Shown here piece by piece: positions 13,250 to 31,528 of a DNA stretch of 64,000 nucleotides (the stretch's first letter is position 1; each line of letters starts with the position of its first letter). Position numbers and translations under genes: made by a program. A model generated the notes under the pieces. It was not told the DNA's origin. It worked only from the letters and a program-made list of their open reading frames with translations, and searched no databases. Source of the stretch: Sabulicella rubraurantiaca (GTDB lineage Bacteria > Pseudomonadota > Alphaproteobacteria > Acetobacterales > Acetobacteraceae). The stretch is from NCBI RefSeq assembly GCF_017355885.1, contig NZ_JAFEUU010000008.1:62001-126000 (forward strand), in the 5' to 3' direction.

Positions 13250-15217
13250 ATGGCCCGATCCCTTCGCACGCACCAGCGCCGCATCCTCGGGGTCGTGCGG
13301 GCCATTGCGTCAGGCGAAGCCTCAGGGCTTCAGGACATCCTCGCGGCGGTGACACCGGGCGGGGGCAAGAGCCTCCTGCCTGTGCTGGCGGCGAGCGAGT
13401 TGATCCGCGCCGGGGTCGTGGACCGGGTGTGCTGGGTGGTTCCCAGAGACAGCCTGCGCCTGCAGGCAGAAGAAGCTTTCGCCGACGGGGGGTGGCGTTC
13501 GGAGCTTGGTCACAGCCTCTCCGTCCGAGCCGCCGAGAACGCGCCTGACCCATGCCGGGGCCTCGCGGGCTACGTGACCACCTACCAAGCCGTCGCCGCC
13601 GCTCCCGAACTGCACATGAGGGAATTCAGCCGGCACCGGTATCTGCTCGTGGTGGACGAGATCCATCATCTCCCAGCATTGAGCGACGCAGAGCCCTCGG
13701 GACAGGTAGGGGAGGGGGCGTGGGCCTTGGAGCGCGAGGCCTCCTGGTCGCGGGCCTTGTTGCCGATGCTCGAACTTGCCCGGGTCCGTCTCTTGCTTTC
13801 CGGAACACTCATGCGCGCGGATGGGCGGCCGATCCTGTGGCTGCCCTACGGCAAGGGAAGTTCCGACCGGACACGGGAAGTGGACCTTCGGGCGTCCGGC
13901 TGGGCGGTGGTTGGCTATTCCCGCGCCGAGGCCCTGCGGGAGAAGGCCGTGCTGCCGGTGACCTTCGGTGCCGTACAGGGGGAGGCGTCTTGGATCGAGC
14001 CCGACGGCCCAGCCGTAGGGCCCCATACACTGGATGCGGATTACGAGACCACGCGACCCGCTCTCTTCACGGCACTCCGCACCGAATTCGCCTTACAACT
14101 GCTCGACCGCGCCTTCGACGAGACGCGCATGCTCAGGGCCGGGCGACGCCGGAAGCTCGGTGTGATGGCGAGGGACGGCGGCAAGGGACTTGGAAAGCTC
14201 CTGGTCGTGGCACCTGATCAAGTGCAAGCACGGCGATACCTGGACCACATCAGAGGGCGGCTGCCCGTGGCGCGGCGGCTGGTGGATGCGCGGCTCGCCA
14301 TTTCGGACGAGCGCGACGCGCAAGAAACCCTTGCTGCTTTTCGGCTCATGAGCGAGCCGGCATGCCTCGTGACCGTGGCGATGGCCTACGAAGGCTTGGA
14401 CGCTCCGGGCGTGTCGGTCGTGGCCGCTCTCACCCACATCCGGTCACGGCCCTGGCTGGAGCAGATGATCGCCCGTGCCACGCGGATCGACCCCCATGCG
14501 GGGCCGGTGGACGAGCAGAGGGCGCTGGTCTTTCACCCTGACGATCTTCTGTTCCGCGCCTTCCGACGCCGTATCGAGACCGAGCAGGGCACGGTCGCGC
14601 GGAGGCCTAAGGAAAGCCGGGGGCAGCGCCTACCGGATTGGTTAAGACAGGAGCTGGGGGAAGAAGGCCGACACGGCATCGTGCCGCTCTCCTCCAACGC
14701 CACGGGGCTGCGGTGGGAGAACCTAGCGGCCGGGCCGACGCTTCAGGTGGGGCGCCCGGCAGCGGCGAAGGATCCGGGTCCGCTGCTCGATGGGCTGCCC
14801 ACAACGCCCGATGCCCCGACCCCTTCGAGCGTGGAGCGGCGGCTGCGGCATCAGGTCGGCGAGATGGTGGCCGCACAGGCGGTGGAGGACGAAGCCGCGC
14901 TGCGGGCGCCGCGCGGCGACGGGACCTATCACCGCTATAATGCCGTGTTGAAGCGGGTGATGGGCAAGGGCAGAGGACTCATGACCCTGGCCGAGCTTGA
15001 GGCGACGGTGGGCTGGCTCGAACGCAATCGCCTGGCCGAGCATCTGCATCTCGTGGAAGGCGACCCTCGCTACGCGCACCGGGCGCGGCGCGTGAACGAG
15101 GCGGAGCGGCGGCGCCTAGCCTCGGAAGGGCAGAGCGCCCTCGATGCGACGAAGGCCCAAGCCGAGTTCTGGCGGCCGCCTGTGGGAAAGCCCGACACCA
15201 GGGCGAGACGGGGATAA
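13250..15217 (+). CDS. superfamily II DEAD/DEAH-type helicase
   Basis: The 655-aa protein contains a full SF2 motor. Motif I is TPGGGKS (residues 35-41), motif II is DEIHH, motif III is LLLSGTLM, and motifs V-VI are VAMAYEGLDAPGVSVVAAL and IARATRIDP. Residues after about 440 form a helical C-terminal region with no recognised nuclease, methylase or specificity domain. It most resembles COG1061-type helicases found in repair and anti-phage loci. It starts with ATG at 13250, and codon use resembles that of its neighbours. The following small membrane protein and Cro-like regulator are separated by operator dyads, so they are a different transcription unit. Confidence 0.82.
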   Translation: MARSLRTHQRRILGVVRAIASGEASGLQDILAAVTPGGGKSLLPVLAASELIRAGVVDRVCWVVPRDSLRLQAEEAFADGGWRSELGHSLSVRAAENAPDPCRGLAGYVTTYQAVAAAPELHMREFSRHRYLLVVDEIHHLPALSDAEPSGQVGEGAWALEREASWSRALLPMLELARVRLLLSGTLMRADGRPILWLPYGKGSSDRTREVDLRASGWAVVGYSRAEALREKAVLPVTFGAVQGEASWIEPDGPAVGPHTLDADYETTRPALFTALRTEFALQLLDRAFDETRMLRAGRRRKLGVMARDGGKGLGKLLVVAPDQVQARRYLDHIRGRLPVARRLVDARLAISDERDAQETLAAFRLMSEPACLVTVAMAYEGLDAPGVSVVAALTHIRSRPWLEQMIARATRIDPHAGPVDEQRALVFHPDDLLFRAFRRRIETEQGTVARRPKESRGQRLPDWLRQELGEEGRHGIVPLSSNATGLRWENLAAGPTLQVGRPAAAKDPGPLLDGLPTTPDAPTPSSVERRLRHQVGEMVAAQAVEDEAALRAPRGDGTYHRYNAVLKRVMGKGRGLMTLAELEATVGWLERNRLAEHLHLVEGDPRYAHRARRVNEAERRRLASEGQSALDATKAQAEFWRPPVGKPDTRARRG

Positions 15218-15268
15218 GGCGGGCCTCTGACGCGGCGCGCGACGGTGGCGGGTGGCGGCGCAGAAACT

Positions 15269-15326
15269 AATCCGCACTTTGCGGATTTGTCATTGACGGC
15301 CGCGCCGCAAATCCGCACATTGCGGA
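15269..15326 (+). promoter_or_regulatory. promoter with two operator dyads upstream of the small membrane protein/XRE pair
   Basis: AATCCGCA-CTT-TGCGGATT (15269-15287) is a perfect 8-base-arm palindrome. TCCGCA-CAT-TGCGGA (15312-15326) is a second copy with 6-base arms. A TTGACG at 15293-15298 followed after 17 bases by CACATT places dyad 1 upstream of the -35 and dyad 2 over the -10. This is the layout of an autoregulated Cro/Xre promoter; the likely binder is the HTH protein at 15623-15850. Confidence 0.6.
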
Positions 15327-15356
15327 CACGACGAGGGTTAAGCCCCGTCAGATCGA

Positions 15357-15626
15357 GTGGAGACGCCGTTGAGCACCACCACGGACATCCCCGAGCGCCT
15401 CAACCTTGCGGAGCTGGTTTCACGCATCGAGCGCCAGCAGGAAGAGACGCGGAAGTTTGTCGCCGAGCAGCACAAGCTGACCGCCGAAGCTGCGAAGCTG
15501 AGCGCGGAGGCATCCAACCTGCGTGTCACGCGCTTTGTCACGCCGGTGGCCGCAGTGGTGGCGGCGATCGGTGCCCTGACGGCTGCCGCTCCGGTGATCG
15601 CACGTTGGCTGGGAGGGGGTGGATGA
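15357..15626 (+). CDS. small coiled-coil, C-terminally membrane-anchored protein
   Basis: The 89-aa protein starts at GTG (15357) and has a heptad-rich helix (LAELVSRIERQQEETRKF and EAAKLSAEASNL) followed by one hydrophobic segment (VTPVAAVVAAIGALTAAAPV). It is a tail-anchored coiled-coil protein of unknown role. The stop overlaps the start of the next gene (ATGA), so the two are translationally coupled. A membrane effector with a DNA-binding partner is one possibility, but nothing in the sequence proves it. Confidence 0.5.
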   Translation: METPLSTTTDIPERLNLAELVSRIERQQEETRKFVAEQHKLTAEAAKLSAEASNLRVTRFVTPVAAVVAAIGALTAAAPVIARWLGGGG

Positions 15627-15850
15627 GCCCCACCCGCCTGCGTGAGTGCCTCATTCTCCTGCGGTGGACGCAGCGAGGACTGGCCGATGCTCTGGGCATG
15701 GACGAGGCGCGCGTCCGAAAATGGGCCAGAGGCGTGGGCAGCGTGCCTACCGAAATCGCGGAGTGGCTGGAACGCCGTGCCGCCGCCATGGCCGAAGACC
15801 CGCCACCAACGGCGCCCGATGGACGACGCCGGCAGCCCGAGGCGGCTTAG
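15623..15850 (+). CDS. small Cro/C1-type HTH protein
   Basis: The 75-aa protein is mainly one helix-turn-helix: RLRECLILLRWTQRGLADAL followed by GMDEARVRKWARG. It resembles phage Cro or small XRE regulators. The ATG at 15623 overlaps the stop of the upstream membrane protein. It probably binds the TCCGCA-N3-TGCGGA dyads upstream of the pair and represses its own operon. Confidence 0.65.
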   Translation: MSPTRLRECLILLRWTQRGLADALGMDEARVRKWARGVGSVPTEIAEWLERRAAAMAEDPPPTAPDGRRRQPEAA

Positions 15851-15935
15851 TCACAGCCAAGCAGGATAGGCTGGGCCGCTTCAGGCGGCGCTTGTGGGTT
15901 CCCGACGCAGGTGAGGACGGAAGGCAGGAGAGACC

Positions 15936-16313
15936 GTGCACATCCAAGCTGACCTAACCGAGTTCCTCGCCACGGTGTCCGACGCCAGCGGACAGATCCG
16001 GCCCCTGGCGCTGTGCGAGCGGCTGCGCATCACGCCCGCGCAGCTCGCCGCATCCATCGGCGTGTCCTAAGAAGCGCTGACTCAGGGCGCGCGCATCTCC
16101 ACACCCACCATGCAGGCTTGGCTCCGCGATCTGGCCGAAATCATCGGCCGGGTGCGGCAGGCAGCGGGATCCGAGCTGGCGGCCTTTGCCTGGTAGCAGT
16201 CGCAGAACCTGCCTGGCTTCGGTGATCTGACCGCCGAAGACCTCGTGAAGGCCGGGCGAGCCGACGCGGTGCGCAGATACCTGGCCGACATCGAGCACGG
16301 CGGCTACGCGTGA
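15936..16313 (+). pseudogene. MbcA/ParS-like antitoxin pseudogene with two internal stops
   Basis: A single reading frame of 125 codons from GTG 15936 (with AGGAG upstream) to TGA 16311 encodes a protein with an N-terminal helix-turn-helix (CERLRITPAQLAASIGVS) and a C-terminal LPGFGDLTAEDLVKAGRADA segment followed by RRYL. These match the toxin-binding region of Xre/MbcA/ParS antitoxins (DUF2384). The frame is broken by TAA at 16068-16070 and TAG at 16194-16196 with no frameshift, so it decayed by point substitution. No RES-type or other toxin partner lies beside it. Recognition is by eye from the motif pattern. Confidence 0.7.
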
Positions 16314-16414
16314 CTGACTGAGGACGGAAACACCACGCGTCCCCCGGGACTCTTGCGGAATCCCCTCCCTCTTTTGGTAGACGGTTCCCAGAATGTTCAC
16401 GCTGGGAGGTCGCG

Positions 16415-17356
16415 ATGGAGGAAAAGAAGCCGGCCAAGGAGACGGAGAGCGCCGTTGTTCTCGACATCGAGACGGTGCCTGACCTCGATGCGGCGCGCCG
16501 CCTGCTCGGCTTCGGACCCGAGGCGCAAGATCAGGAGGTCCGCGCCGCCCTGACGGATTATTGTCGCCGACCGGGCCAGAAGGACGAGGAGGTCTTCGTC
16601 AAACCCGTCCTGCAGAAGATCGTCGCGATCTCGGTGATCCTGTGTCGCCGCACGGAGAACGTCGAGAAGTCGCGGGGCTGGGAGGTGTTGCGCATCGCCA
16701 CCCGGCACACGGGCCATGGGAGCGAGCGGGACATGCTGGAGCGGCTGGATCAGCTTCTCGGGCCCCGCCGGGAGACCAACAAGCAGCCCTGCATCATTGG
16801 CTGGAACACGGCGGGTTTCGATCTGCCCTTGGCCCGCCTTCGCGCCGTGGCGCTGCGCCTGCCGGCTCAGTACCTCGCCTATCGCAAGCCCGCAGGGATT
16901 CAGGACTGGAAGTTCGAGAAGGAGCACGGATACCCGCTGCCGCATGACTACTGGCGAAAATACGCCGACTGTCATGTGGACCTGATGGAGATCATGGCGA
17001 ACTGGGGCGCCAGCACAAGGTACAAGCTGGTCGAAATGGCGGCTGCGATGGGACTACCTGGAAAGGCCGACGGCGTGGAGGGTTCCATGGTCGAGCCCAT
17101 GGTCAACGAGGGCCGGATCGAGGAGGTGGGCCGTTACTGCGAGGGCGATGTCGGCCTGCTCTACGGTGCTTGGCTTCGCTACCAGCTTGCTTGCGGCCAT
17201 CTCAATGAGAAGGAGCACGCGCAGAGCTGGAAGTCCTTGGCGGACTGCGCCCGGACCCGCGGCGAGCGGTTCGATCATCTGCAGCCGCTGCTCGACGTCG
17301 CAGACATAGAAGCGCGCAACGCCGGCCTCCTGACAGCCGAACCCGTCATGGCCTGA
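16415..17356 (+). CDS. PolB-like predicted 3'-5' exonuclease
   Basis: The 313-aa protein matches the DNA_pol_B_exo2-type family of stand-alone exonucleases. ExoI is VVLDIETVPDLDAARR (Asp and Glu metal ligands). ExoII is CIIGWNTAGFDLPLARLR. ExoIII-like residues lie in VGRYCEGDVGLLYGAWLRYQL. It should degrade single-stranded DNA 3' to 5' and is usually a repair enzyme. The ATG at 16415 follows GGGAGG. It is followed 110 bases later by the HU-like gene. Confidence 0.85.
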   Translation: MEEKKPAKETESAVVLDIETVPDLDAARRLLGFGPEAQDQEVRAALTDYCRRPGQKDEEVFVKPVLQKIVAISVILCRRTENVEKSRGWEVLRIATRHTGHGSERDMLERLDQLLGPRRETNKQPCIIGWNTAGFDLPLARLRAVALRLPAQYLAYRKPAGIQDWKFEKEHGYPLPHDYWRKYADCHVDLMEIMANWGASTRYKLVEMAAAMGLPGKADGVEGSMVEPMVNEGRIEEVGRYCEGDVGLLYGAWLRYQLACGHLNEKEHAQSWKSLADCARTRGERFDHLQPLLDVADIEARNAGLLTAEPVMA

Positions 17357-18316: not shown

Positions 18317-19735
18317 GAATTCCCGCGCGGGCGGGGAGCGGCTCGACAAGCACATCGGCGAGTGCGTGATGGCGGGTGCATCCCCGCGAGGCGAGGAACA
18401 TCTCCGCCCGCTCGTCATCGGTCACACGCATCGCGGATCATCCCCGCAAAGGCAGGGGAACGTGTCGAGGACGCGGGTGGCACCAACACCTTTGAAGGGC
18501 CATCCCCGCAAGGGCAGGGAGGAGCAGGCCTTGCTCTGGGTCCGATTCTTTTGATCGGGCCATCCCCGCGAGGGCAGGGAAGCTGTCATGGGTCAGACCA
18601 CGGGCAACGTCTACGCCGGGCCATCCCGCAAGGCAGGGACACTCAGCCCATAAGCGCATCCAAACGCAAAAGACCGGCTCATCCTCTTCGGGCGAGGAAC
18701 AGAGACAGTTCGTGATGATGGCGTCCTGGATGTTCGGTGCAGCCCCGCAGGCGGGGACCTGTTGAACGCCAAGCCAGGGGTCGTCGTGACGATCGGGTCA
18801 TCCCTGCAAGTGCAGGGAACGGATGAATACGGTGCGTGGTCGGGACCTCGTGTGCGGTTCATCCCCGCTCGGCGGGGAATGCAGATTGTCTCCTCCAGCA
18901 CCATTTCCAACGCTGGATCATCCCCGCAAGGGCGAGGAGCTTGCGGCCCACAAGCGCATGCATACCAAAAAGATCGGCTGACCCCCGCAGAAGCAGGGAA
19001 CCTCTCGGTCTTGGTCTCGGCGGTGCATATGATGACCGGCGCATCCCCGCGAGGGAAGGGAGCCGGATTTCAGCTGGGCCGAGTTCGCTTCTACCGAGGG
19101 CCATCTCCGCAGAGGCGGAGAGTGGGACTGGCGAGCAGGCAAACTCACCTAGCAGACCGGTGCATCCCCGCAGGGCGGGGAAGAGGTTTGCACGCTGATC
19201 GCCTTGCATCACACCCCTGGATCATCCCCGCGCGGGCGGGGAACACATGCGCCTCTTCGGCAACTTCGAGAAAAACGTCGGCGCATCCCTGCGTGGGCAG
19301 GGAAAGGACGCGCTGCGGCTTTAGCCGCCCGTTGGGTTGGGCTCATCCCCGATGGCGGGGAACACCAAGGCACTGATGTCGGCGGCACATAGGAGCCAGG
19401 ATCATCCCCGCTGACGCAGGGAACCTCTTCGGGTGCTGGACCTCAAGCCGCCTCATTCGGGCTCATCCCCGCAGCGCGGGGGCCAAGGCAACAGCAACTA
19501 TGGCCGCACCACCGATCTCGGCTCGTCCCCACGCGAGCAGGGGAACAACTGGGCCGTGAAGGTGCGCTGTAACGGGCGTGTGGCTCATCCCCGCACGCGC
19601 GGGGAACACCTCAAGATGCCCTACGAGGAGCGCAAAGAGATCGGCTCACCCCGCAGGCGCGGGGAACACGGTCGCTGCGGCTAGAGTGACACCAGTCTAT
19701 TTGGATCATCCCCGCACGTGCGGGGGACACTCTTC
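18315..19735 (-). CRISPR. degenerate type I-E CRISPR array, 24 repeats
   Basis: Twenty-four repeats with the core ATCCCCGC-N4-GCGGGGAAC (as read on the plus strand) recur every 58-62 bases, usually 60 or 61. Core A positions are 18319, 18380, 18440, 18502, 18562, 18623, 18681, 18741, 18800, 18861, 18920, 18981, 19043, 19103, 19164, 19224, 19285, 19345, 19404, 19465, 19525, 19587, 19648 and 19708. The repeat matches the E. coli type I-E repeat read in reverse, so crRNA should be made on the minus strand, with 5' handles like AUGAGCCG. That direction puts the leader at the right end. The repeats differ from one another, but arm pairing is often kept. Copies nearest the presumed leader (19587, 19648, 19708) are closest to consensus, and 19224 is also intact. 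Confidence 0.9.
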
Positions 19736-21109: not shown

Positions 21110-21808
21110 TCAGACACGGCCGGTGAACAGCATCAGGCCGTGTCCAAAGGCGCGGGCCCGGCCGAGACCTGATGCTATGGCCTCCCGGAGCTTGCCGGGG
21201 TCCGTCACCTCCAGCACGCCGACGAGATCGGCGACATCCAAGCGGATCTGCTGCCCTTTTCCGGCGCAAGCGCGGCTGAGCGAGGTGTGACGCTCCTGTT
21301 CGACCTGGAGATCCAGCAACGCGAAACCGTGCTGCTCGCCCTTGCGGGAAAGCCAGTCCCGAAGTGCGGCATGAACCAAGCGGTCCTTCTCTTCGGGCGC
21401 GGCGTCCCGCGGCAGGCCGCGCAGCGCCTTGGAGACGACGCCGAGCCGCTTTCCCCGCTTCTTGAGGAGGCCGCCTTCCTCGCGCACCGAGGCTGTCGGA
21501 TTCACGCGCAGCTTGAAGCCCCAGCGGTCCCCAGCCGCCAGCGATAGCGGCAGGGGTTTGGTCCGCAAGTGGAACAAACCATGCGGGTCGCGCGGCTCGC
21601 GATGCGAAAGCACCCAGGCCACGTCGTCCTCCAGCCGCCACAGGAAGTCACGGCGGTCGTCGCGCGCCTCATGGAACAGGCCCCAAAGGAGCTTGTGCCA
21701 GGTGTCTGAGCGCTCGCTGTCGTCACGCGGCTGCAGCAAGGGCACGAAGGCCTGTGACGGCTGGTCGCGGCGCAGGCTGACCTGCGAAAGCCAGAGGGGA
21801 TGCGTCAT
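21110..21808 (-). CDS. cas6e: CRISPR repeat endoribonuclease Cas6e
   Basis: The 232-aa protein has the Cas6e/Cse3 plan: an N-terminal RRM-like start (LWLSQVSLRR), central GLFHLRTKPLPL and FKLRVNPTASVREEG, and the C-terminal glycine-rich ARAFGHGLMLF loop that marks RAMP proteins. It cuts pre-crRNA at the repeat hairpin and stays in Cascade. Its start overlaps the cas5e stop by 4 bases. The start context is GGAGATCCCCCG-ATG, one of the C-rich start boxes seen through this locus. Confidence 0.92.
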   Translation of the reverse strand: MTHPLWLSQVSLRRDQPSQAFVPLLQPRDDSERSDTWHKLLWGLFHEARDDRRDFLWRLEDDVAWVLSHREPRDPHGLFHLRTKPLPLSLAAGDRWGFKLRVNPTASVREEGGLLKKRGKRLGVVSKALRGLPRDAAPEEKDRLVHAALRDWLSRKGEQHGFALLDLQVEQERHTSLSRACAGKGQQIRLDVADLVGVLEVTDPGKLREAIASGLGRARAFGHGLMLFTGRV

Positions 21809-22518
21809 CGGGGGATCTCCGCCACGAATTCGGCGCGGCTGTCGTATTGCCGGCGCACGCGCGAGCGCAGGGCATCGAGACGCTGCTCCACCCGGCCCGA
21901 GAGGGTGAGGGAGGCGGCGTCCGCTTCGTCCAGCGCGAGGGTTTGGTGCTTCTCCCCGCCCGCATAAACGTCGAGAAGTCGCTTGCCCCGTCGCCCCGAC
22001 AGCACCGTGTTTTCCGGCCCCGTCTGAGCACGCTCCTTCAGGGCGACCTCGGCGTTCGGAACCTGAATGATGCGCGGGGCCAGGGGCAGGGCGAGCGGGC
22101 AGCAGGCCCGCCCGAGGTAGGGAGCGAAGACGGGCCGTCGCATGGCTTCCGCCACCTGCTCCAAACTCCAGGGTGAGGCCTCCCGCTCCCAGAGCGCCCC
22201 GAGGTGCCAGACATCCTCGCGGTACTGGCGGCGAGTAATGCGGGTGGTCAGGGACGAAGCACCCGGCACGCGGAACTGGACCGTGTGGTAGTCCACGCTC
22301 ATCCGCCCAGGGGCGAGGGTGAGCACGCCGAGGCCGAAGCAGCGCTCGATTTCCAGATGCGCGGCTTCGTCCGACCGTTCCACGCCCAGACAGGCCGCCA
22401 CGAGGCCGAGCAGGCCCGACCGGGTGGGCCGGGCTTGGCTCGGGCGGATCTCGCCCAGCGCCAACTCGCCGAAGGCGGCGAGCGGCGCCACCAGGGCGAA
22501 GGTGAGATGCGGGCGCAT
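21805..22518 (-). CDS. cas5e: Cascade subunit Cas5e
   Basis: The 237-aa protein matches Cas5e/CasD: HLTFALVAPLAAFGELALGE at the N-terminus (where the family has LxGPMxSWG), then RPTRSGLLGLVAACLGVER, and the mid-protein DYHTVQFRVPG, TTRITRRQYRED and VFAPYLGRACCPLA. Cas5e binds the 5' handle of the crRNA. The start is one base past the cas7e stop and lacks its own SD, so translation is probably coupled. The first motif is less canonical than in E. coli, but the overall pattern is clear. Confidence 0.92.
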   Translation of the reverse strand: MRPHLTFALVAPLAAFGELALGEIRPSQARPTRSGLLGLVAACLGVERSDEAAHLEIERCFGLGVLTLAPGRMSVDYHTVQFRVPGASSLTTRITRRQYREDVWHLGALWEREASPWSLEQVAEAMRRPVFAPYLGRACCPLALPLAPRIIQVPNAEVALKERAQTGPENTVLSGRRGKRLLDVYAGGEKHQTLALDEADAASLTLSGRVEQRLDALRSRVRRQYDSRAEFVAEIPR

Positions 22519-22519
22519 C

Positions 22520-24007
22520 TCAGGGCGTCAGGGCGAGGGCGATGAGGTCCTCGCGGCTGATGCTCGGCGGCAGCTTCTTGCCCTGGCAGGGCTCAGCCTT
22601 CTTGTCCGCTTTCCCGAATGGCACCCGGGCCGCGACCGCCTCTGCGATCTCCGCCGGCATCCGCGTGGTCATCATCGCGGCGGCATTCCCGTTGCCATAG
22701 ATGCGGTTCAGCCGCGCCCGGTAGTCGAGCAGCGAGCCGATCGAGGCATTCAGCAGGTCCTCACCCGACACCGGCATGGCGAAGGCGCCGGCGAGGGAAC
22801 GGGGCTGCTCAGCGCCGACCTCGACCAATGTGAAGTCCACGGGCGGATAGGCCGCGAAGCTCGCTTGCCGTCCGCCCGGCACCGCAGCCGGCAGGGCCTC
22901 GATCAGCGCGGTGATGGTGTCGCGGAGGAGGGCATTTTTCTCCTCAGCAGCCAGCCCGGTGCCGAGATTCCGCTCCAGCAGGGCGCGGTTCAGCACGAGA
23001 TACTGGTAGTAGACGCCGGAGCCGAAGAAGGCGGTGTCGATGTGACCGGCGCCGGTCTCGTCCGCGCCGCTGCGATCATCCATCCCGGAAAAAAAGTCAT
23101 CCTCAGCGACGGCGCGATGCGTGGTGAAGGCATGGGCCACATGCAAGGCGGCCGTGCGGTCGAATTCGTGCGCGTCAGCGAACATCCGCCCCATGAGCGC
23201 GACATCCACGCCCGGATCGGCCGCGTTCAGCACCGCCGCGCGGATCTCGCCCTGCGCCCTGCCAATCGCCTTCTCGTCACGCTTGGGCTTGGGGGCCGGC
23301 TTGCCGCCCTTCCTGGACTTCTCGGCCGCCTTGGCCTTGGCGGCGGGCGCGGCCGTGGGCGTGCCGAACATGTCGGTCGCACCTAGCACGGTGCCGGAGA
23401 AGTCGTCCTGCGCGGGCCCATCCTGCGCGCCCTCGGGGCCGGCATCGGCGTCGGCCGCGGGCGCCGTCTCCTCCGGTGGGATCGCCGCCAGTGTCAGGAA
23501 GGCCTTGATCCTCTCCGCATCCGCGAGCGTCTCGACCAGGAAAGCCTTGAGGCGCTGTTCCTCGAAGGGGGAAAAGAAGGCGAGCGTCTTGTTCTGGATA
23601 CGCCCGTTGGTCTTCTCAGCCGCTTCGAGCTTGCCAAACGCCTCGGCGATGAAGTGCGACAGGGTCAGCCGGTCCGCCGCGGAGAGGGACTGCGCGGCGG
23701 TGGCGTGCCGGGCCTCAATCTCGGCACGAATCGTCTCGCCGATGCGCCGGGTCCGTGCGCCGATCAGGCTCTCCAGCCGCGCCTGGAAGGCGGGCGAGAA
23801 GCGCAGCGCGCGCTTCTGGCTTTGCGAAGACAGCCGCAGGCGGGGCACGCCGCCCACGTTCGCCTGCTTGGGCTGGCCGGCCTCATCGCGGTTGAGGTTG
23901 TGCAAGCCGATGAAGCGCAGGAGGTGGATCTGCACGAAGGGCCGCTCGGCATAGGTGGGGGCATCCCCCGCGCGCAGCGGCGCGGAGGCAATGGTCGTCT
24001 TGGTCAT
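22520..24007 (-). CDS. cas7e: Cascade backbone subunit Cas7e with long internal insertion
   Basis: The 495-aa protein is clearly Cas7e/CasC: VQIHLLRFIGLHNLNRDEAG, LRLSSQSQKRALRF near residue 60, and the later GSGVYYQYLVLNRALLERNL and FTLVEVGAEQPRSLAGAF. Six copies normally coat the crRNA. It is over 130 residues longer than the E. coli protein. Residues about 176-247 are a low-complexity Ala/Pro/Lys insertion containing DDFSGTVLGATDMFGTP. The start context is GACGAGACCCCC-ATG with an upstream CCTCCTCC tract and no SD. Confidence 0.93.
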   Translation of the reverse strand: MTKTTIASAPLRAGDAPTYAERPFVQIHLLRFIGLHNLNRDEAGQPKQANVGGVPRLRLSSQSQKRALRFSPAFQARLESLIGARTRRIGETIRAEIEARHATAAQSLSAADRLTLSHFIAEAFGKLEAAEKTNGRIQNKTLAFFSPFEEQRLKAFLVETLADAERIKAFLTLAAIPPEETAPAADADAGPEGAQDGPAQDDFSGTVLGATDMFGTPTAAPAAKAKAAEKSRKGGKPAPKPKRDEKAIGRAQGEIRAAVLNAADPGVDVALMGRMFADAHEFDRTAALHVAHAFTTHRAVAEDDFFSGMDDRSGADETGAGHIDTAFFGSGVYYQYLVLNRALLERNLGTGLAAEEKNALLRDTITALIEALPAAVPGGRQASFAAYPPVDFTLVEVGAEQPRSLAGAFAMPVSGEDLLNASIGSLLDYRARLNRIYGNGNAAAMMTTRMPAEIAEAVAARVPFGKADKKAEPCQGKKLPPSISREDLIALALTP

Positions 24008-24017
24008 GGGGGTCTCG

Positions 24018-24542
24018 TCAGGAGGAGGGGAGGGAGGAGGGCTCGGAAAAGCCCCAGAATTGGTAGACGAGCCGCTGCTTTCGGCGGTCGTTCCAGTCGA
24101 GCAGGGTCTCGGCCAGGTCGATGATGGGCATCGTCCGGCCCAGGAGGTGGACCGTCCGCCGCCATTCGCCGAGCAGCAGTTCGGGCTCGGCGATCTTCAG
24201 CAGCCGCGCGAAGCGATGGGGGTTCATCACACGGCTGTCGCTGCCGGGACGGAGCGCGCCGAGATGGCGGCCCAGGCTTCGTGAGACAGCATTCTCGCGC
24301 ACCTGCGCCAGCACCCCGGCCGTGAGCGCCACCTGCTCGAAGCGGGGTCGGTACTCGGCCGGAAGCTTGCTGAACAGCTCAGCGGCGGCCGGCTGGGTCA
24401 TGAGCGCGAGCAGCGTGTCGGCCCGCGCCAGGGCGGTGCGGCTGCCCGCATCGCCCTTGAAGCTGCCGTTGCCCTGCAGGCGCGCCCACCAGGAGAGCGC
24501 CACGCTGCCATGCGTTTCTTTTTCGGCAGGGCGGGCGCTCAT
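24018..24542 (-). CDS. casB: Cascade small subunit Cse2 (Cas11e)
   Basis: The 174-aa, mostly helical protein has the Cse2 pattern: WWARLQGNGSFKGDAGSRTAL near the N-terminus, RRLKIAEP-like LLKIAEPELLLGEWRRTVHLLG, and DLAETLLDWNDRRKQRLVYQFWG at the C-terminus. Two copies normally form the inner spine of Cascade and hold the non-target strand. The start overlaps the cse1 stop by 4 bases and has GGAGAG upstream inside cse1. Confidence 0.93.
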   Translation of the reverse strand: MSARPAEKETHGSVALSWWARLQGNGSFKGDAGSRTALARADTLLALMTQPAAAELFSKLPAEYRPRFEQVALTAGVLAQVRENAVSRSLGRHLGALRPGSDSRVMNPHRFARLLKIAEPELLLGEWRRTVHLLGRTMPIIDLAETLLDWNDRRKQRLVYQFWGFSEPSSLPSS

Positions 24543-26194
24543 GCCGCACTCTCCACCGTGTTCGCGGGTCGCAGGGTCAGGGAGATCCCCAGGGGCTTGG
24601 TGATGGCCTTCCGGGCATCGTCGGTGCGTCCGAACAGGTGATCCATGAGGATCCGCCTGGCTTTGGCGATCCGCTCATTCGCGGGGCTGCCCAGAGGGTC
24701 CAGCGGCGCTTCCTCGTCGAAGATGCGCAAGGCCTCGAGCCGCAGCCGCGCCACCCAGGCCTCGCGACCCGGCATCAGCACGCCCGCATCCTCGCGGACG
24801 CGAGCCAGCGTGTCGTAGAACAGTGCCTCGGTGGCGCCCTCTAGCTGCTCTGTCACTGCGAGCAGCACGCCGTTCGACCCATCGAGCGCGCCAGTGTAGC
24901 TCGCCTTGCCGAGGAAAAGGGCGTCGTTCAACGCAACTCGGAGCACTTGGCTGGCGAAGTCTGCGGCTTGGGTAAGCAGCGTGGCCTCGGTGTGTACGCG
25001 CGGGGCGGCCTCCGGCTCCATCGCGAAGATGGGCAGGCGGCTGTGGAGAAAGCTCAGGGCCTTCGAGTTGGTGGTCTCGTAGCCCGCGAGCAGCAGGCTG
25101 CCGGCAGCGGCGGCATTGGTGTGCCCCCGCCCCACGGCATAGGCCTCGCCGCGCCACTCCAGCCATTCCTGGGTGGCCGGCGCAGGAGAGATGTCGGGGG
25201 CGTCCGGCCGCAGCAGCGCCAGGTTGTGGTAGTGGCGATAACCCACCAGGCCACGCCGGGCCTTCAGGCTGCGCTTGATCCTCGGCCCGTCCTTGCCAGC
25301 GGACAGATGCGCCACGGGGGTCAGCGGGTGAACCCCGGCCCAGTCCGCGTAGCGCACGCCGGACGACTGCATCCAGAAGCTCGACAGGACCACCTCCGGC
25401 TCCGTGCCGGTGATGGAGCAGGCGCGTCCGTTGGCGGGCTCGAAGCAGAGGCGGATGCGGCGCGGCATGGGCCAGAAGGCTTGCAGATCGTGGGCATCGT
25501 CGCGCACCGGGCGCACGGAGCGGCCGCCGATGCCGGTGATGGTGGGCGCGAGCCAGGGGAAGATCCGGGGCAGATCGGCCGCCTCGGGGGCCTTGCCGCG
25601 CGGCGTGTTGGCCCACACCGCCTCCCACAGCGTGGCATCGGGACGGGGCTGCACCAGCTGCACCAGGGGCGAGGCGCCGCGCAGAGTCGAGTAGTGGCCC
25701 CGGCCGCCGGGATGCGCCCAGGCCTGCAGCGTGTAGAGCGCGATCGCGGCCGCCCCGGGCGAAAGAGCCATCTCGAAGCCCGGCTTCATCGTGACGGGGT
25801 TGCCGTCTGCCAGGTCGAGCAGCAGGTCGGTCGCCGGGCGCTGGTTCTTCTCGCGCCCGTCCAGGGGATCGAGGTCCTGGAGGAAGCGCGGCGCATCGCC
25901 ATCGGCCCACAGATTGAACGCATGCGCGAAGGGAGCGAAAGCCGCTTCCAGTTCCGCTGGCGAGGGCGGGAAGGCGACGCAAAGGCGCCAGTCGCGGCGG
26001 TCCTGCGCGAGCCCGGCGAGGCGCATCAGGCCGACCAGCATCTCCAGCGTGGCGATGTGGAAATCCGCGCGCGGCCAGTCGATCCGTATGACAGGATTCT
26101 CTCGGAACTGGCTGGTGATCTGGGCAGGGCTGATGGTGGCCCGGGAGCCGTCGGCACGGCGCACCGGGAGCCAGGGATCGGTGATGAGGTTCAT
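24539..26194 (-). CDS. casA: Cascade large subunit Cse1 (Cas8e)
   Basis: The 551-aa protein matches Cse1: NLITDPWLPVRRADG at the N-terminus, EMLVGLMRLAG, FLQDLDPLDG, and GAAAIALYTLQAWAHPGGRGHY. It has an internal WMQSSGVRYADWAGVHPLTP and the four-helix C-terminal bundle. Cse1 recognises the PAM and recruits Cas3. The start lies 131 bases after the cas3 stop. Its context is CCGAGACCCCCTGA-ATG with no recognisable SD. Confidence 0.93.
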   Translation of the reverse strand: MNLITDPWLPVRRADGSRATISPAQITSQFRENPVIRIDWPRADFHIATLEMLVGLMRLAGLAQDRRDWRLCVAFPPSPAELEAAFAPFAHAFNLWADGDAPRFLQDLDPLDGREKNQRPATDLLLDLADGNPVTMKPGFEMALSPGAAAIALYTLQAWAHPGGRGHYSTLRGASPLVQLVQPRPDATLWEAVWANTPRGKAPEAADLPRIFPWLAPTITGIGGRSVRPVRDDAHDLQAFWPMPRRIRLCFEPANGRACSITGTEPEVVLSSFWMQSSGVRYADWAGVHPLTPVAHLSAGKDGPRIKRSLKARRGLVGYRHYHNLALLRPDAPDISPAPATQEWLEWRGEAYAVGRGHTNAAAAGSLLLAGYETTNSKALSFLHSRLPIFAMEPEAAPRVHTEATLLTQAADFASQVLRVALNDALFLGKASYTGALDGSNGVLLAVTEQLEGATEALFYDTLARVREDAGVLMPGREAWVARLRLEALRIFDEEAPLDPLGSPANERIAKARRILMDHLFGRTDDARKAITKPLGISLTLRPANTVESAA

Positions 26195-26325: not shown

Positions 26326-28962
26326 TCAGCCGTCGCCCTTGGAGCGGGGCAGGAGCAGGCCCTCGCGGGGGTGGTAGCGGACGTCGCGCAGGCCGAAGAC
26401 CGGCACGGGCGAGCCCTGGGGATCGGGCCGTCGCGCGAGACAGCCAAGCAGGAGCCGCTCGTTGTCGCGGTCCAGCTCGTTCCACGTCTCGCGCGTGGCT
26501 TTCATCGCCGCGTCCATCTGAGATGGAGCGGCAATCGCTGCGGCGCGCTTGAGCGATGCCGAGACTTCGGAGAGCGCCCAGGCGAGGGAAGGGCGCTTCT
26601 CGGTCGAATACGGGCGGAACTTCCCGCTCTCCAGGAAGCCCAGCCGGATCGTCACCGTCGGCTGATCCTCCAGGCGGGTCCGGGCCGACTCTTCGGATGT
26701 CCAAGGCGCGGAGCGGCGATAGCCGTCCTCGAAGCGCAGCACGGTGCTCTTGGCGATGGCTTCCTGGCGGCTTTCGTCCTCGCGGGCTTTCTGCGCCAAG
26801 GCGACGAGAGCGCCAGGTCCACCCTCTGCCGCGGCCGCTTCGATCAGGGTGCGGAGATTTTGCTCCTTGTCCTGGTGGCCCGGGGCCTTGATCGCGCCTT
26901 GGTCGAGAAGGGCTTTAGTGGACCGCCACAAGAGCGAGGGATCCGCGTAGACGGCGGCCGAGCCCTTGTGCTGGTCCAGCCATTCGGCGATCGCGTCCTC
27001 CGCCGGCTCCGGCGCGTAGAGCAGCAGCTCGGCGCGGGGCAGCGGACGGTGCGGTCGCTCGATGTGACGCCACAGGCGCCCAGCCCTCTGGATCACGAGG
27101 TCCACTGGGGCGAGGTCGGTGATCATCAGATCGAAGTCGAGGTCGAGCGACTGTTCGACGACCTGGGTGGCGATCAGGACCCGCGCCCTCTGGTCGGGCG
27201 TGCTCGTCTTGCCGAAAATGTCGAGCACCTCGGCTTCGATGGCGAGACGGTCTTCCATCGCGAAGCGGGCGTGGAAGAGGATGGGATCCAGCCCCCGGCT
27301 CCGCAGCAATCGCGCGGCCTCGATGGCCTCGTCCACGGTGTTCCGGACCCAGCACACGGCCGCGCCGAGCCGAGCGGCTCCTTCGATCTCGCTCAGCACC
27401 TCGCGGAACGAGCCGACGCGGCGAACGGCGGTGCGCGGTCCGATGGCCGGGCGCGCCAAGCAGGGCGCTTCGCGAACGCCCGAGGCGGAAGCCAGCGTCA
27501 TCAGCGGATAAGCTTCGGCTGTCACCGTCTCGGGTTGGACGCCCAAGCCTTCAGAATAGGCGTCCACCAGGCGCTGGCGCAGCTGCATCGGCAGGGTCGC
27601 GGACAGGATGATGGCGGAGCCGCCCAGGGCCGCATGAAAGCGCAAAAGAGTGAAGATCTCCTCGCGCATGTAGCTGTCGAAGGCGTGCGCTTCGTCGATG
27701 ACGAGGACCTTCTGGCTGAGGCCCCAAAGGCGCAGCGCGGCGTGCCGCACCGGCAGAATGGAGAGCAACGCCTGGTCGATAGTTCCCACACCGACGTGAG
27801 CCAGAAGCGCCTTGCGGCGCTCATCGCCAAGCCAACCCGCGCACTGGGCTTCGCTGTCGTTGCCCTGGATCACGGGGATGTCCTCGAACATCGGCAGGAT
27901 CGTCGAAGTGAACTCCTTTATGAGATCGGCGCGGCCGTGGGAGAGAGCGAGCGAGGGCTGGGTGCCGGGAACAAAGAACCGAGACCAGCACTTGCGCAGG
28001 CGGCGAAACATGCCGTTCGCCGTCGCCATGGTGGGGAGGGCGAAATACAGGCCGTCGCCGCGGCCCCTGGCGAGCAGCCGGTGCGCCAGGGTCAGAGCGG
28101 CTTCCGTCTTGCCCGCGCCCGTCATGTCTTCGACCAGGACCAGCACCGGCCCCTCGGGCAGGGGCTCGGTCTCGGCCTTTCTCTGCAGCGGCGTGGGTTG
28201 GGCAATCTGAGGGAAGAGATGGCGCAGCCCCGCGAAAGGCGCGACCTTGGCGTGACGGATGCCCGAGGTCGCCACAGCATGATCGGCAATCCGTCGGGAC
28301 CGGGCCAAGTAGTCCGACAGCGGCGGAAAATGCTTCGCCTCGACATAGGTGAACTGCTCGCGCGAGGATCCGAGCCAGTCGGCGAGCACCACGAAACCCG
28401 CCAGGCGCCACGTCAGCGTCGCCAGGGCGTGATCGCTGTCGATCGCGGGCAGGGGCTCAGGCCGGAACAGGTCGAGCAGGTGGCGCACGTAGGTCTCGGC
28501 AGCCTCGCATTCGAGCGGGCCGAGCTGCGTGGGAGCGGGCGGCAGGATGAGGTCGTGCGGCTTGCCGTGATGCCCGAAAATCACGTGCAGCAGGGCGTCG
28601 CGCTCCCACGGCATGAGGTTCGCAAACAAGGGGGCGAGGAGCGTGCGGATGTTCGGCAGGCGCACGAGATGGTGCCCCACACCCTCGTGGCCGGGATCGT
28701 CCACGGCCGGCGGCTCGCAGCCGAACAGGGCCGCATCCCAGGCCTCCGGCGCCTTGGCTTGGAAGCAGCGCGCGAATTTGCCGATGTCGTGAAGTGCCAG
28801 GAGAAAGCCGAGTTGTGCCTCGGAGAATGGCAGATTGTGGGGAAGCGTCATGGCGCACGCCGCGACATCAAGATTGTGCCCGATGACCGGATGGCTGTGG
28901 GTGGTGGCTTGGGCGTCAGGCTTGGCCTTCGCCCAGAAGCGCAGAAGAGCGTCGAGATGCAT
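26326..28962 (-). CDS. cas3: CRISPR nuclease-helicase Cas3
   Basis: The 878-aa protein contains an N-terminal HD nuclease (His22/His24, His29, and LLALHDIGKFARCF with His58-Asp59) and an SF2 helicase. Walker A is MTGAGKTEAAL (near 280-290), DEAH is at 423-426, SATLP follows near 454, and the C-terminal motor has LIATQVVEQSLDLDFDLMITD and QRAGRLWRH. A C-terminal domain ends at residue 878. All catalytic motifs are intact and the length is normal for type I-E. The ATG at 28962 lacks an SD: a CU-rich CCTCTCCTCCTCCC tract and GGCGATCCCC precede it. A structured leader with terminator lies upstream. Confidence 0.95.
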   Translation of the reverse strand: MHLDALLRFWAKAKPDAQATTHSHPVIGHNLDVAACAMTLPHNLPFSEAQLGFLLALHDIGKFARCFQAKAPEAWDAALFGCEPPAVDDPGHEGVGHHLVRLPNIRTLLAPLFANLMPWERDALLHVIFGHHGKPHDLILPPAPTQLGPLECEAAETYVRHLLDLFRPEPLPAIDSDHALATLTWRLAGFVVLADWLGSSREQFTYVEAKHFPPLSDYLARSRRIADHAVATSGIRHAKVAPFAGLRHLFPQIAQPTPLQRKAETEPLPEGPVLVLVEDMTGAGKTEAALTLAHRLLARGRGDGLYFALPTMATANGMFRRLRKCWSRFFVPGTQPSLALSHGRADLIKEFTSTILPMFEDIPVIQGNDSEAQCAGWLGDERRKALLAHVGVGTIDQALLSILPVRHAALRLWGLSQKVLVIDEAHAFDSYMREEIFTLLRFHAALGGSAIILSATLPMQLRQRLVDAYSEGLGVQPETVTAEAYPLMTLASASGVREAPCLARPAIGPRTAVRRVGSFREVLSEIEGAARLGAAVCWVRNTVDEAIEAARLLRSRGLDPILFHARFAMEDRLAIEAEVLDIFGKTSTPDQRARVLIATQVVEQSLDLDFDLMITDLAPVDLVIQRAGRLWRHIERPHRPLPRAELLLYAPEPAEDAIAEWLDQHKGSAAVYADPSLLWRSTKALLDQGAIKAPGHQDKEQNLRTLIEAAAAEGGPGALVALAQKAREDESRQEAIAKSTVLRFEDGYRRSAPWTSEESARTRLEDQPTVTIRLGFLESGKFRPYSTEKRPSLAWALSEVSASLKRAAAIAAPSQMDAAMKATRETWNELDRDNERLLLGCLARRPDPQGSPVPVFGLRDVRYHPREGLLLPRSKGDG

Positions 28963-29107
28963 GGGGATCGCCGGGAGGAGGAGAGGAGTCCGGCAGCGCG
29001 ACGGGATCTTTTCTTTTCATGCCACTGAGGCGGACCGTTCCGGCCTCCTGCGGGAGAAGAAAACCAGCGCTGCCGCGTCTTTTGTTTTCTTCACCGGACC
29101 GAGAAAG

Positions 29108-29141
29108 AAAAAAGGCCGGGGCGCCCCCCGACGCCCCGGCC
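29108..29141 (-). terminator. intrinsic terminator/attenuator in the cas3 leader
   Basis: On the minus strand a 10-base-pair GC stem (plus-strand arms 29114-29123 and 29132-29141, 8-base loop) is followed by six T and then CTTTC. This is a strong intrinsic terminator located about 150 bases before the cas3 start, so cas3 expression would need readthrough or a second promoter. Confidence 0.8.
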
Positions 29142-29239
29142 CACTTTACCCTCACTATCCGGGAGACAGGCCCAGGCGACGAAACCTGGACCGCACGAAG
29201 GAGGGCCGGGTTTTGAAGCTGGGCCTGAACTCCATCACT
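29108..29239 (-). ncRNA. candidate leader RNA / small RNA, copy A
   Basis: Transcribed on the minus strand, the sequence should fold into a stem GGCCCAG/CTGGGCC enclosing AAAACC/GGTTTCG, with a loop containing CCCTCCTTCGTGCGG, and then the terminator hairpin. Copy B has the same architecture with changes that keep the pairing (GAAACCC/GGGTTTC there). The loop CCTCCTT is complementary to an SD sequence, as in several alphaproteobacterial small RNAs. The promoter is not located. Confidence 0.55.
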
Positions 29240-29296
29240 GGTTTTTCAGGCGCTTAGCCGACTTTCCTGTCTGGAAAGTCGCCCAAAGGGCCTGCA

Positions 29297-29737
29297 TCAG
29301 GCCAGGGCCGGTTCGAGCTGCGGCACGACGGCAGCGCTGTGGGACAGATCCTTCTCCATCCGCGCGGCGATCGCCTCGCCCGACGCCCGGAGAGCCTTCG
29401 GCGCGGTGTCGCTGATCACCAGATCGCATTCGAGGGCGAGCAGGGCGGCCATGTCCGGCGTGGTGACGAGAATCTGCGCACCCGACCGCGCCTTGTCCGT
29501 GGCGAAGGCGCCGTTCGCTTCGGCTGCCGGATCGGCCTGAAGCAGGATGGGGTTGTAGCCGCCGACGCGCAGCAGGCTGGCCGCTTCCAGGGCGTCGTCC
29601 GCGGTCGCGCGGATCCAGCACACCGTCGCGCCAGCCATGGAGGCGCGTTCGATTTCGCATAGCGCTTCGACGATCGAGGAGATGTGGCGCGCAGGCGTGG
29701 AGAGGGCGTTGGGGAGCGGGCAGGTGTCGAGGGTCAT
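29297..29737 (-). CDS. mini-Cas3: stand-alone fragment of the Cas3 second RecA domain
   Basis: The 146-aa product aligns to Cas3 residues about 518-620. Over 40 positions (residues 24-63 against Cas3 521-560) I count 23 identities, including EIE, VCW and EAA-LLR. A later LVTTPDMAALLALECDLVISDTAP corresponds to the Cas3 motif V region. HD, Walker A, DEAH and the QRAGR motif are missing, so no helicase activity is expected. The ATG at 29737 shares its context (GGCGA-N-CCCC-ATG) and upstream leader with cas3, indicating origin by duplication of cas3 followed by internal deletion. It is an intact frame, so it may be a functional regulator or partner, or a young relic. Confidence 0.7.
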   Translation of the reverse strand: MTLDTCPLPNALSTPARHISSIVEALCEIERASMAGATVCWIRATADDALEAASLLRVGGYNPILLQADPAAEANGAFATDKARSGAQILVTTPDMAALLALECDLVISDTAPKALRASGEAIAARMEKDLSHSAAVVPQLEPALA

Positions 29738-29872
29738 GGGGTTCGCCGTCGGAAGGGGTGAGGAATTCGACAGCGCAGGGCGGCTTTTTCTTTTCTGCGG
29801 TCGCGCGATGCGCCGCGAGGTGCCGGAGGCTAAGCGCTGAAGCGTCTTTGTTGTCCCTGGAGGACGGAGAAG

Positions 29873-29905
29873 AAAAAAAGCCGGGGCACCTTTCGGTGCC
29901 CCGGC
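29873..29905 (-). terminator. intrinsic terminator/attenuator in the mini-cas3 leader
   Basis: A perfect 11-base-pair stem (plus-strand arms 29880-29890 and 29895-29905) is closed on the minus strand by a GAAA tetraloop and followed by seven T. It is a textbook intrinsic terminator. It sits about 140 bases before the mini-cas3 start. Confidence 0.85.
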
Positions 29906-30008
29906 CAAGTTATCCTGCAATCTACTAGGAGACGGCCCAGGCGACGAAACCCGGTCCGCACGAAGGAGGGCTGGGTTTCAGCGCTGGGCCAAACCCACTT
30001 CCATCACT
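29873..30008 (-). ncRNA. candidate leader RNA / small RNA, copy B
   Basis: On the minus strand GGCCCAG pairs with CTGGGCC and GAAACCC with GGGTTTC around a loop containing CCCTCCTTCGTGCGG, followed by the GAAA-capped terminator. Part of the right arm, GGGUUUCGUC, could pair with GACGAGACCC in front of the cas7e start (10 pairs, one G-U). Existence as a discrete RNA is inferred. Confidence 0.55.
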
Positions 30009-30106
30009 TTCTGGCCTATGCCGATTTCCTTGGACCTTCCGTAGGGATTTGCCTTTGACTTCGCCTGCTGCGATTGGAAGGAAATCCAGAGGAGGGGCAT
30101 AAGATA

Positions 30107-30544
30107 ATGAGCTTTTTGCCTAGGGAGATTTTGTTGATCCCCATGGCCGTTGGGCTCCTGCTCGGAGGCTGCGTGCAGGATCAAGCTGCGACCCAATTCG
30201 AGGACGTCCGCCCCATTGCGAGTTCCCTCGCCAGCCCTGGGTCTAGAAGAGCGGGATCAACACAGCATTGGGCGATAGGCCGTTGGACCGGTGAACTTGT
30301 TGGCCAACTGAGAGGCAATACGCGAACTCTACGGATCACAGAAGTAAACGGGCCTCGAGCAAGAGGGACCTGGGCAGGCTCTCCGGTAGACATCGTCATT
30401 GATGACAGAACCTTGAACTTTACGGGTCCGCAAGGCAACCCAATAAGCCTAACGATGACCGACCCAAACACTCTTTCGGGATACGTCATCACCATGCGTA
30501 ACCGATCAGGCGGCCGCTGGACTGTTGTCTTAACTCGAAGCTGA
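30107..30544 (+). CDS. putative lipoprotein
   Basis: The 145-aa protein has an N-terminal hydrophobic helix and a lipobox (LLLGGC, Cys at residue 22). A beta-rich mature domain follows, with WAIGRWTGELVGQL and GTWAGSPVDIVI. It would be anchored in the inner or outer membrane. No specific family recognised. The gene is divergent from mini-cas3, and its base composition is less GC-rich than its neighbours, which may indicate transfer. The start at 30107 follows GAGGGGC with a long spacing, so the exact start is less sure. Confidence 0.65.
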   Translation: MSFLPREILLIPMAVGLLLGGCVQDQAATQFEDVRPIASSLASPGSRRAGSTQHWAIGRWTGELVGQLRGNTRTLRITEVNGPRARGTWAGSPVDIVIDDRTLNFTGPQGNPISLTMTDPNTLSGYVITMRNRSGGRWTVVLTRS

Positions 30545-30708: not shown

Positions 30709-31528
30709 TTACAACTCCACGACAAGATCCGGACGGAAGTCAGGATTGGGGTCGTGGCCTACATAGCCGCGCGGATTGGCGACGAGACGCGTGCGGCCGA
30801 TCCAGAAGTCCTGGCTCGTGTGGATGTGCCCGAACAGCCAAAGGTCTGGCTGCATCTCCTCGATAAGGCCATCGAGCTTCGACGCATAGGCCACGATGAA
30901 CGGGTCGGAGAGCCGGTGCTGCGGCACGGCTTGCACCGAGGGCGCGTGGTGCGTCATGACCACCGTCCGGCCCGCGAATGGCTCCTGGAGCTTGTCGCGT
31001 AGCCAGCGCACCGATTGCTCGTGGAGCATGGCAGCGTCCTTGGGCCGGAAGCACCGGTAGGCGTCGGCCGCGACCCGGATTGCATGGAAGTCGTTGATCC
31101 GGCGGCGGTGGCGGTCGCCCACGCAGATGTTCGCCACGCGCCGCACCTCATCCAGAGCGGCCACGGGGTCTTCATCGCCGGTGAGCGGAAGGCGGAAGTC
31201 GGCCCACAAAGTGCATCCCAAAACGCGCAGCTCATGGCCGATCCGGAACTCGTCGCACTCCAGGAGCGCGAGACGTTTGGCTGGCGACATCGCCTTCAGC
31301 TTCGGCACCATGGTGTCGATCTTGCCGTCGTAGAACGCGTGGTTCCCACAGACCGCGACCACGGGATGGCCAAAGGCGGCTTCGGCATCCTCCCAGGGGC
31401 ATAAGCGGCCGCGGGTGAAGGTGTCGCCCGCGAGCAGAGCTAGGTTGGCTTCCACGGCCGGCGGCTCGAAGACACCGAACTGACGCTGCTCGCTCGCAGT
31501 GCAAATCGGACAGGACGTGCAGGCGCAT
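30709..31528 (-). pseudogene. metallophosphoesterase gene with a frameshift near the N-terminus
   Basis: The N-terminal MRLHVLSDLHCE (ATG at 31528) carries the first metal motif (Asp and His) of calcineurin-like phosphoesterases, but its frame soon turns nonsensical. The remainder continues in another frame from about 31490 (FGVFEPPAVEANLALLAGD), then VVAVCGNHAFYDG, VMTHHAPSV and LWLFGHIHTS, all expected motifs. The total of 820 bases is one off a multiple of three, consistent with a single indel around 31480-31500. This could be natural inactivation or a sequence error. Confidence 0.75.

Follow-up and report, generated by a model that had tools for sequence, protein, structure and literature searches.

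How bacteria control Cas3, a processive DNA-degrading enzyme, is an open question, and the controls of Cas3 known to us act mostly at promoters or on proteins. The window analysed here, a 64-kb stretch of Sabulicella rubraurantiaca DNA, raises the question of whether interference can also be throttled at the level of RNA: its cas3 gene stands behind a leader that bears a terminator, and the same leader, copied along with a Cas3 fragment, stands a second time just upstream, an arrangement that would make RNA-level throttling testable with reporters. Among the matches listed in a search of the open-access literature (titles and abstract starts), which is no proof of absence in print, we found no case of leader or attenuation control of cas3 or of a cas operon. 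The answer that we tentatively favour is that both copies are 5' leaders, each throttling transcription of its own downstream gene as an attenuator that has no RNA-only switch.

Results

The window carries a type I-E effector operon on the minus strand, in the order cas3, cas8e, cse2, cas7e, cas5e and cas6e by Pfam. The cas3 gene (26326-28962, minus strand) encodes HD, DEAD and Cas3 C-terminal helicase domains and is also recognized as Cas3e by PADLOC; the five genes that follow it occupy 21110-26194 on the same strand, and with cas3, cas8e, cse2, cas7, cas5, cas6e and an array the system is of type I-E. Upstream of cas3 and in the same orientation lies mini-cas3 (29297-29737, minus strand), which encodes 146 amino acids corresponding to a fragment of the second Cas3 helicase domain.

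Each of these two genes is preceded by a leader of about 270-280 nt, copy 1 (29738-30010) before mini-cas3 and copy 2 (28963-29241) before cas3, and sequence comparison bears out an earlier sequence-only reading that had described the leader as duplicated, in the same order of parts and on the minus strand. In both copies a 57-nt structured element is followed by a 27-nt linker, an intrinsic terminator, an A-rich tract and the start context. Segment alignment places the element at 29934-29990 in copy 1 and 29169-29225 in copy 2 (minus strand), where it scores 91.4 and 86.8 bits, respectively, with a model of the element only (R2; a second model, R1, comprises element and terminator). Terminator scans place the hairpins at 29879-29906 (copy 1, with a GAAA loop, then T7) and 29113-29142 (copy 2, then T6), both on the minus strand and each T-run including the T paired at the stem base. 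The A-rich tract AAAAGAAAA (29786-29794 and 29009-29017, minus strand, by motif count) lies within GAAAAGAAAA, which begins 58 nt before the ATG in copy 1 and 56 nt before it in copy 2; the window has four occurrences of AAAAGAAAA, where 0.05 are expected, and two of the four are those in the leaders. Neither gene start has a Shine-Dalgarno sequence, and a C-rich stretch ending in CGGCGANCCCC precedes both (29738-29763 and 28963-28990, minus strand); segment alignment and motif count also confirm the A-rich tracts and similar start context read in both leaders before. Leaders that share an mRNA with their coding regions would be expected to keep order, A-tract spacing and start context, and these kept features argue for the throttle. 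They count against the closest rival explanation, which we regard as possible but doubtful, namely that the copies are two stand-alone small RNA genes of about 125 nt whose loop UCCUUCGU pairs with the ribosome-binding sites of other mRNAs, with cas3 and mini-cas3 served by promoters of their own behind the terminators.

The terminators are GC-rich hairpins with a T-run directly after them. Their stems comprise 12 and 13 pairs, each stem including 11 that are Watson-Crick, and the stem with the GAAA loop has 11 perfect pairs and one G-U. A strict test requiring at least 10 gap-free pairs with at most two G-U and then a T-run, applied to both strands of all 64 kb, finds exactly these two (30 Markov sequences contain 0.03 on average and at most 1) and thereby supports the claim of an intrinsic terminator in each leader, one with an 11-pair stem and a GAAA loop; a loose scanner finds no excess of terminator-like sites between 26000 and 34000 (5 sites, shuffles averaging 4.8). 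Both strict-test terminators, the strongest of the window, face a downstream gene and, since they are strong and face cas3 and mini-cas3, the attenuated transcription proposed for cas3 may fairly be supposed. The terminator of copy 1 has no close upstream client, the nearest open reading frame (30074-30544) running in the opposite direction and the nearest same-strand gene, that of a metallophosphoesterase, ending at 30709, about 800 nt away. The terminator of copy 2, however, lies 155 nt behind the stop codon of mini-cas3 and could simply end that transcript. This position lends weight to a reading in which the terminators serve as insulators or close off upstream transcripts, the likeness of the leaders being a remnant of an old duplication of leader and cas3 with no regulatory role; the terminator without a client speaks against such a reading, which we consider unlikely.

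A search for sigma-70-like promoters, with scoring tuned to E. coli-like promoters, yielded no convincing candidate between terminator and ATG, as the throttle would have it, but none upstream of the elements either, and the same scoring offers promoter evidence for neither of the two putative small RNA units. In both copies the A-tract is complementary to the U-tract of the terminator (-7.2 and -7.9 kcal/mol), a relation that is only a lead because any A-tract would pair with a U-tract. Between the mini-cas3 stop and the cas3 leader, close to the former, lies an inverted repeat (29259-29281) of two perfect 9-bp arms separated by 5 nt; having no T-run after it, it may be a protein-binding site. 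An ATG precedes each element, yet the frame and length that follow differ between the copies when read from the sequence, and we have set aside a leader peptide.

Divergence between the copies is strikingly uneven. With gaps counted as differences, the element is identical at 50 of 57 positions, compared with 11 of 27 in the linker, 21 of 27 in the terminator stem-loop, 77 of 143 in the stretch from the terminator to the ATG and 29 of 72 in the stretch upstream of the element. The element thus stands at 88% identity against 40-54% in the neighbouring segments, and its excess over the post-terminator rate is significant (binomial P = 5e-8; Fisher 3.7e-6). Because the element has been kept far better than its flanks, the RNA ahead of the terminator has probably been under selection, although a short gene conversion could mimic this pattern; judged from the two copies, the duplicated leader with its strong terminators is real and apparently selected. 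Retention of the element while equally old flanks decayed weighs against the remnant reading and for the throttle. The same distribution also has a side that favours stand-alone small RNAs: conservation is stronger before the terminator than after it (88% versus 54%), as expected of an RNA acting by itself, and the low similarity upstream of the element is likewise a point against the throttle.

What has been kept in the element is its sequence, above all CCCUCCUUCGUGCGG and the 3' half; the 5' arm holds most of the differences. The differences had been described as pairing-preserving, a description that does not survive: of the 21 pairs, 17 are invariant, one is C-G in one copy and U-G in the other, and three can form in only one copy; no pair is changed on both sides, the sole compensatory pair between the copies being in the terminator. 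A test for covariation has no power with only two sequences (228 of 500 shuffles reach the score). Conservation of sequence and not of pairing could mean that the element works at the DNA level, say as an inverted-repeat site bound by a protein, its RNA fold being a by-product, and the element is indeed a near-palindrome, the opposite strand of copy 1 matching R2 at 33.5 bits. Its arms are unequally conserved, however, and the T-runs give the unit a direction, and we hold a role as DNA to be very improbable.

Compared with 200 dinucleotide shuffles, each leader folds more stably (z = -4.07 and -3.54), and in the predicted fold the eight bases of UCCUUCGU, which lie inside CCCUCCUUCGUGCGG, are mostly unpaired in both copies. 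An exposed loop of this kind, in a hairpin followed by a strong terminator with a U-tail, fits the anatomy of a small RNA. CCCUCCUUCGUGCGG contains CCUCCUU, which we take to be part of the 3' end of 16S rRNA; an anti-Shine-Dalgarno role is therefore possible, even though the stretch is only partly exposed, the leading CCC being paired in the predicted fold. Pairing of the 15-nt stretch with the starts of seven cas genes proved to be background, the best lying at the 15th percentile of random windows, and we have dropped these as targets. Small RNAs with anti-Shine-Dalgarno loops do exist in alpha-proteobacteria (PMC10746234). No Rfam family matches at its gathering score anywhere in the window, which counts against a small RNA and leaves the leader without a place in a known RNA family; the 19 Rfam matches to the leader region at E up to 5 all fall below their family gathering scores.

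The sequence-only reading had further suggested a leader-RNA switch on interference, and here the predicted folds of the two leaders argue the other way. The terminator pairs form with mean probabilities of 0.988 and 0.999, no competing antiterminator fold is found, and the best terminator-free folds are 22.8 and 22.7 kcal/mol worse. The leaders have no exclusive antiterminator fold of similar energy, and in the sampled genomes no cross-species conservation with covarying pairs was found. With no competing fold, an RNA-only switch appears unlikely, and any control would need an outside factor, be it a protein, a ribosome or another RNA; for the throttle, the absence of an antiterminator fold is a weakness.

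Lack of the element in other genomes had been named beforehand as a result that would speak against the switch, and covariance-model and sequence searches gave this result. R2 (E up to 0.001, with stricter filters that lose weak matches) recovered the copies in the own genome, of which there are only these two, and matched none of 396 other genomes of the family, 394 of the order and 384 of the class, these samples overlapping. R1 gave matches in 38 of the 396 other family genomes at 22-36 bits, compared with 146-154 bits for the true copies; five of the 38 alignments were viewed, and four were carried by the terminator and one (L090) by a different hairpin. By blastn, two of 149 other family genomes had matches, both to the terminator part alone, and among 20 other genomes of the genus eight had matches of 23-41 nt, none spanning the region. 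An exact 18-base pattern searched in one genome for each of 84,980 species returned 31 matches, none with the flanks of the element by eye; in viral contigs one pattern had no match and another had six without these flanks, and in plasmids the element had no match. No similar leader was found, by eye or with R1, in the DNA upstream of 19 Cas3 genes of 19 family genomes (40-51% identity), where six stretches fell short of 1,500 nt, in L029 and L030 also owing to a partial Cas3 match, and the leader is absent from three plasmid relatives. Having no match in the sampled genomes, the element would be private to this lineage as far as the samples show. Its restriction to one genome among those sampled tells against the throttle and in favour of a functionless remnant.

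The protein behind copy 1 is a relative of Cas3, as had been proposed: it shares 41% identity over 111 amino acids with Cas3 residues 511-619 of its own genome (E 7e-19 in a single comparison) and matches PADLOC Cas3e at E 1.7e-5, while Pfam and NCBIfam give no match at threshold. In place of the full Cas3 make-up of an HD nuclease and two helicase domains, mini-cas3 retains only part of the second helicase domain. Among the proteins compared, Cas3 of the own genome is its closest relative (41%), ahead of plasmid Cas3 proteins (33-38%) and the Cas3 loci of the family. The leaders are homologous from about the element onward, past the ATG and into the first few codons; since this homology crosses the ATG and the own Cas3 is the nearest relative, the claim that the leader was copied along with the gene is upheld. 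In the simplest history, leader and cas3 would have been duplicated together and the upstream copy would then have lost a large internal part.

The codon-position G+C of mini-cas3 (0.70/0.53/0.87) follows the pattern of the cas genes, and 44 of 100 residues are identical to Cas3 compared with 32.8 +/- 3.2 under simulated neutral drift, a value reached in none of 2000 runs. Codon positions 1, 2 and 3 differ at 41, 32 and 45 of 100 codons, so the constraint on mini-cas3 looks weak, which is again in keeping with a remnant; some of the divergence may have arisen in Cas3. In the protein alignment, mini-cas3 has lost the residues aligned to those we take to be helicase motifs V and VI of Cas3, and it is therefore probably not an active helicase. 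An AlphaFold2 model (pLDDT 61.6) and a Foldseek search with no match at E <= 0.001 were uninformative, and in a tree of Cas3 proteins mini-cas3 sits on a very long branch of unsure placement. Searches with peptide patterns found no relatives in genome contigs, and a search for mini-cas3 gave eight plasmid records and one phage record, all inside annotated Cas3 genes.

The system to which these genes belong appears to have stopped acquiring spacers. Cas1 had no match in the own genome (99.16% complete) by a search that was positive in nine of 14 control genomes, and cas1e and cas2e lie past cas6e in the two Roseomonas plasmid relatives read that far. In the present locus, an RTX-repeat protein gene (21117-19927, minus strand; Pfam HemolysinCabind, E 7.4e-28) lies between cas6e and the array, in the place that cas1e and cas2e occupy in the two Roseomonas relatives. 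The array is worn, with at least 22 mutually divergent I-E repeats at 18435-19731 (minus strand) and at least two more repeat-like units below 18435, to about 18330. Within single repeats, 114 of 132 hairpin-arm pairs are Watson-Crick, against 105.4 +/- 1.9 when arms are swapped among repeats (P = 5e-5), or 122 against 117.4 with G-U included (P = 0.002); without two repeats misread by the arm finder, 109 of 120 pairs are Watson-Crick where swapping gives 103.0 (P = 0.001), and counting G-U raises these to 116 and 113.1 (P = 0.008). Repeats that have drifted while their hairpins were kept are expected if crRNAs are still made, and the array, non-learning in a genome that has no Cas1 match, is by this pattern apparently maintained. 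For none of 21 spacers does the match to the window exceed that of its shuffled versions, matches of the array to the own genome are weak and partial, the two best off-contig ones both lying in or near metabolic-looking genes of one contig (C12, by eye), and those to phages are weak and come from five records. Two spacers (18943-18975 and 18646-18675, minus strand) are about 80% alike over 30 nt (24 of 30, by eye), as if a repeat-spacer unit had been duplicated long ago and then drifted.

Discussion

Under the throttle that we favour, we infer that transcription would start upstream of the 57-nt element and that most RNA polymerases would halt at the terminator, freeing a structured RNA of about 125 nt, while a minority would read through into cas3, perhaps with the Cascade genes behind it, or into mini-cas3. 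The conserved loop and the 3' half of the element are where a protein or RNA that raises read-through would then probably bind.

Such an arrangement resembles intrinsic-terminator attenuation leaders in having a structured 5' RNA, an intrinsic terminator and a same-strand gene behind it, but differs from them in that we found no antiterminator fold, no leader peptide in a shared frame and no conservation across species. The alpha-r14/NfeR1 'cuckoo' small RNAs (PMC10746234) likewise present a C/U-rich, anti-Shine-Dalgarno-like stretch in a hairpin loop; they have three hairpins, each with an identical CCUCCUCCC, whereas a single hairpin bearing another motif stands in each leader here, and Rfam yields nothing at gathering score. 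With type III toxin-antitoxin loci (PMC5086642) the leaders share the layout of an RNA unit, a Rho-independent terminator and a protein gene that read-through would reach, but they contain one element each in place of tandem RNA repeats, and behind them stand genes for Cas3 and a Cas3 fragment where a ToxN-type endoribonuclease would be expected. CreTA, the CRISPR-guided repression of a toxin (PMC8501985), also places a small RNA unit inside a type I cas locus; a repeat-like guide of that kind is rejected here, since ungapped alignment of the CRISPR repeat to the leaders reaches at best 13-14 of 28 positions, where the null averages 14.4-14.5. The small RNA PhrS (PMC6700203) offers a parallel for a CRISPR locus whose termination is under RNA-linked control, but it concerns Rho-dependent termination at the leaders of arrays, in contrast to an intrinsic terminator before cas3.

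A wider reading is that this adaptation-less I-E system has been reused for a regulated, non-adaptive job, in which the worn array would still be processable, Cas3 would be throttled by a terminated leader RNA peculiar to the lineage and the same leader would drive a catalytically dead Cas3 fragment that modulates Cas3, for example as a decoy. We entertain it because the array repeats drifted while their hairpins stayed, and regard it as quite unlikely in its full form. A worn array with kept hairpins makes this locus a case for asking what CRISPR does after learning stops. Beyond the array, a helicase gene of the ResIII type and a gene for a PolB-like 3'-5' exonuclease (13250-17356, plus strand) possibly form another defence or mobile module.
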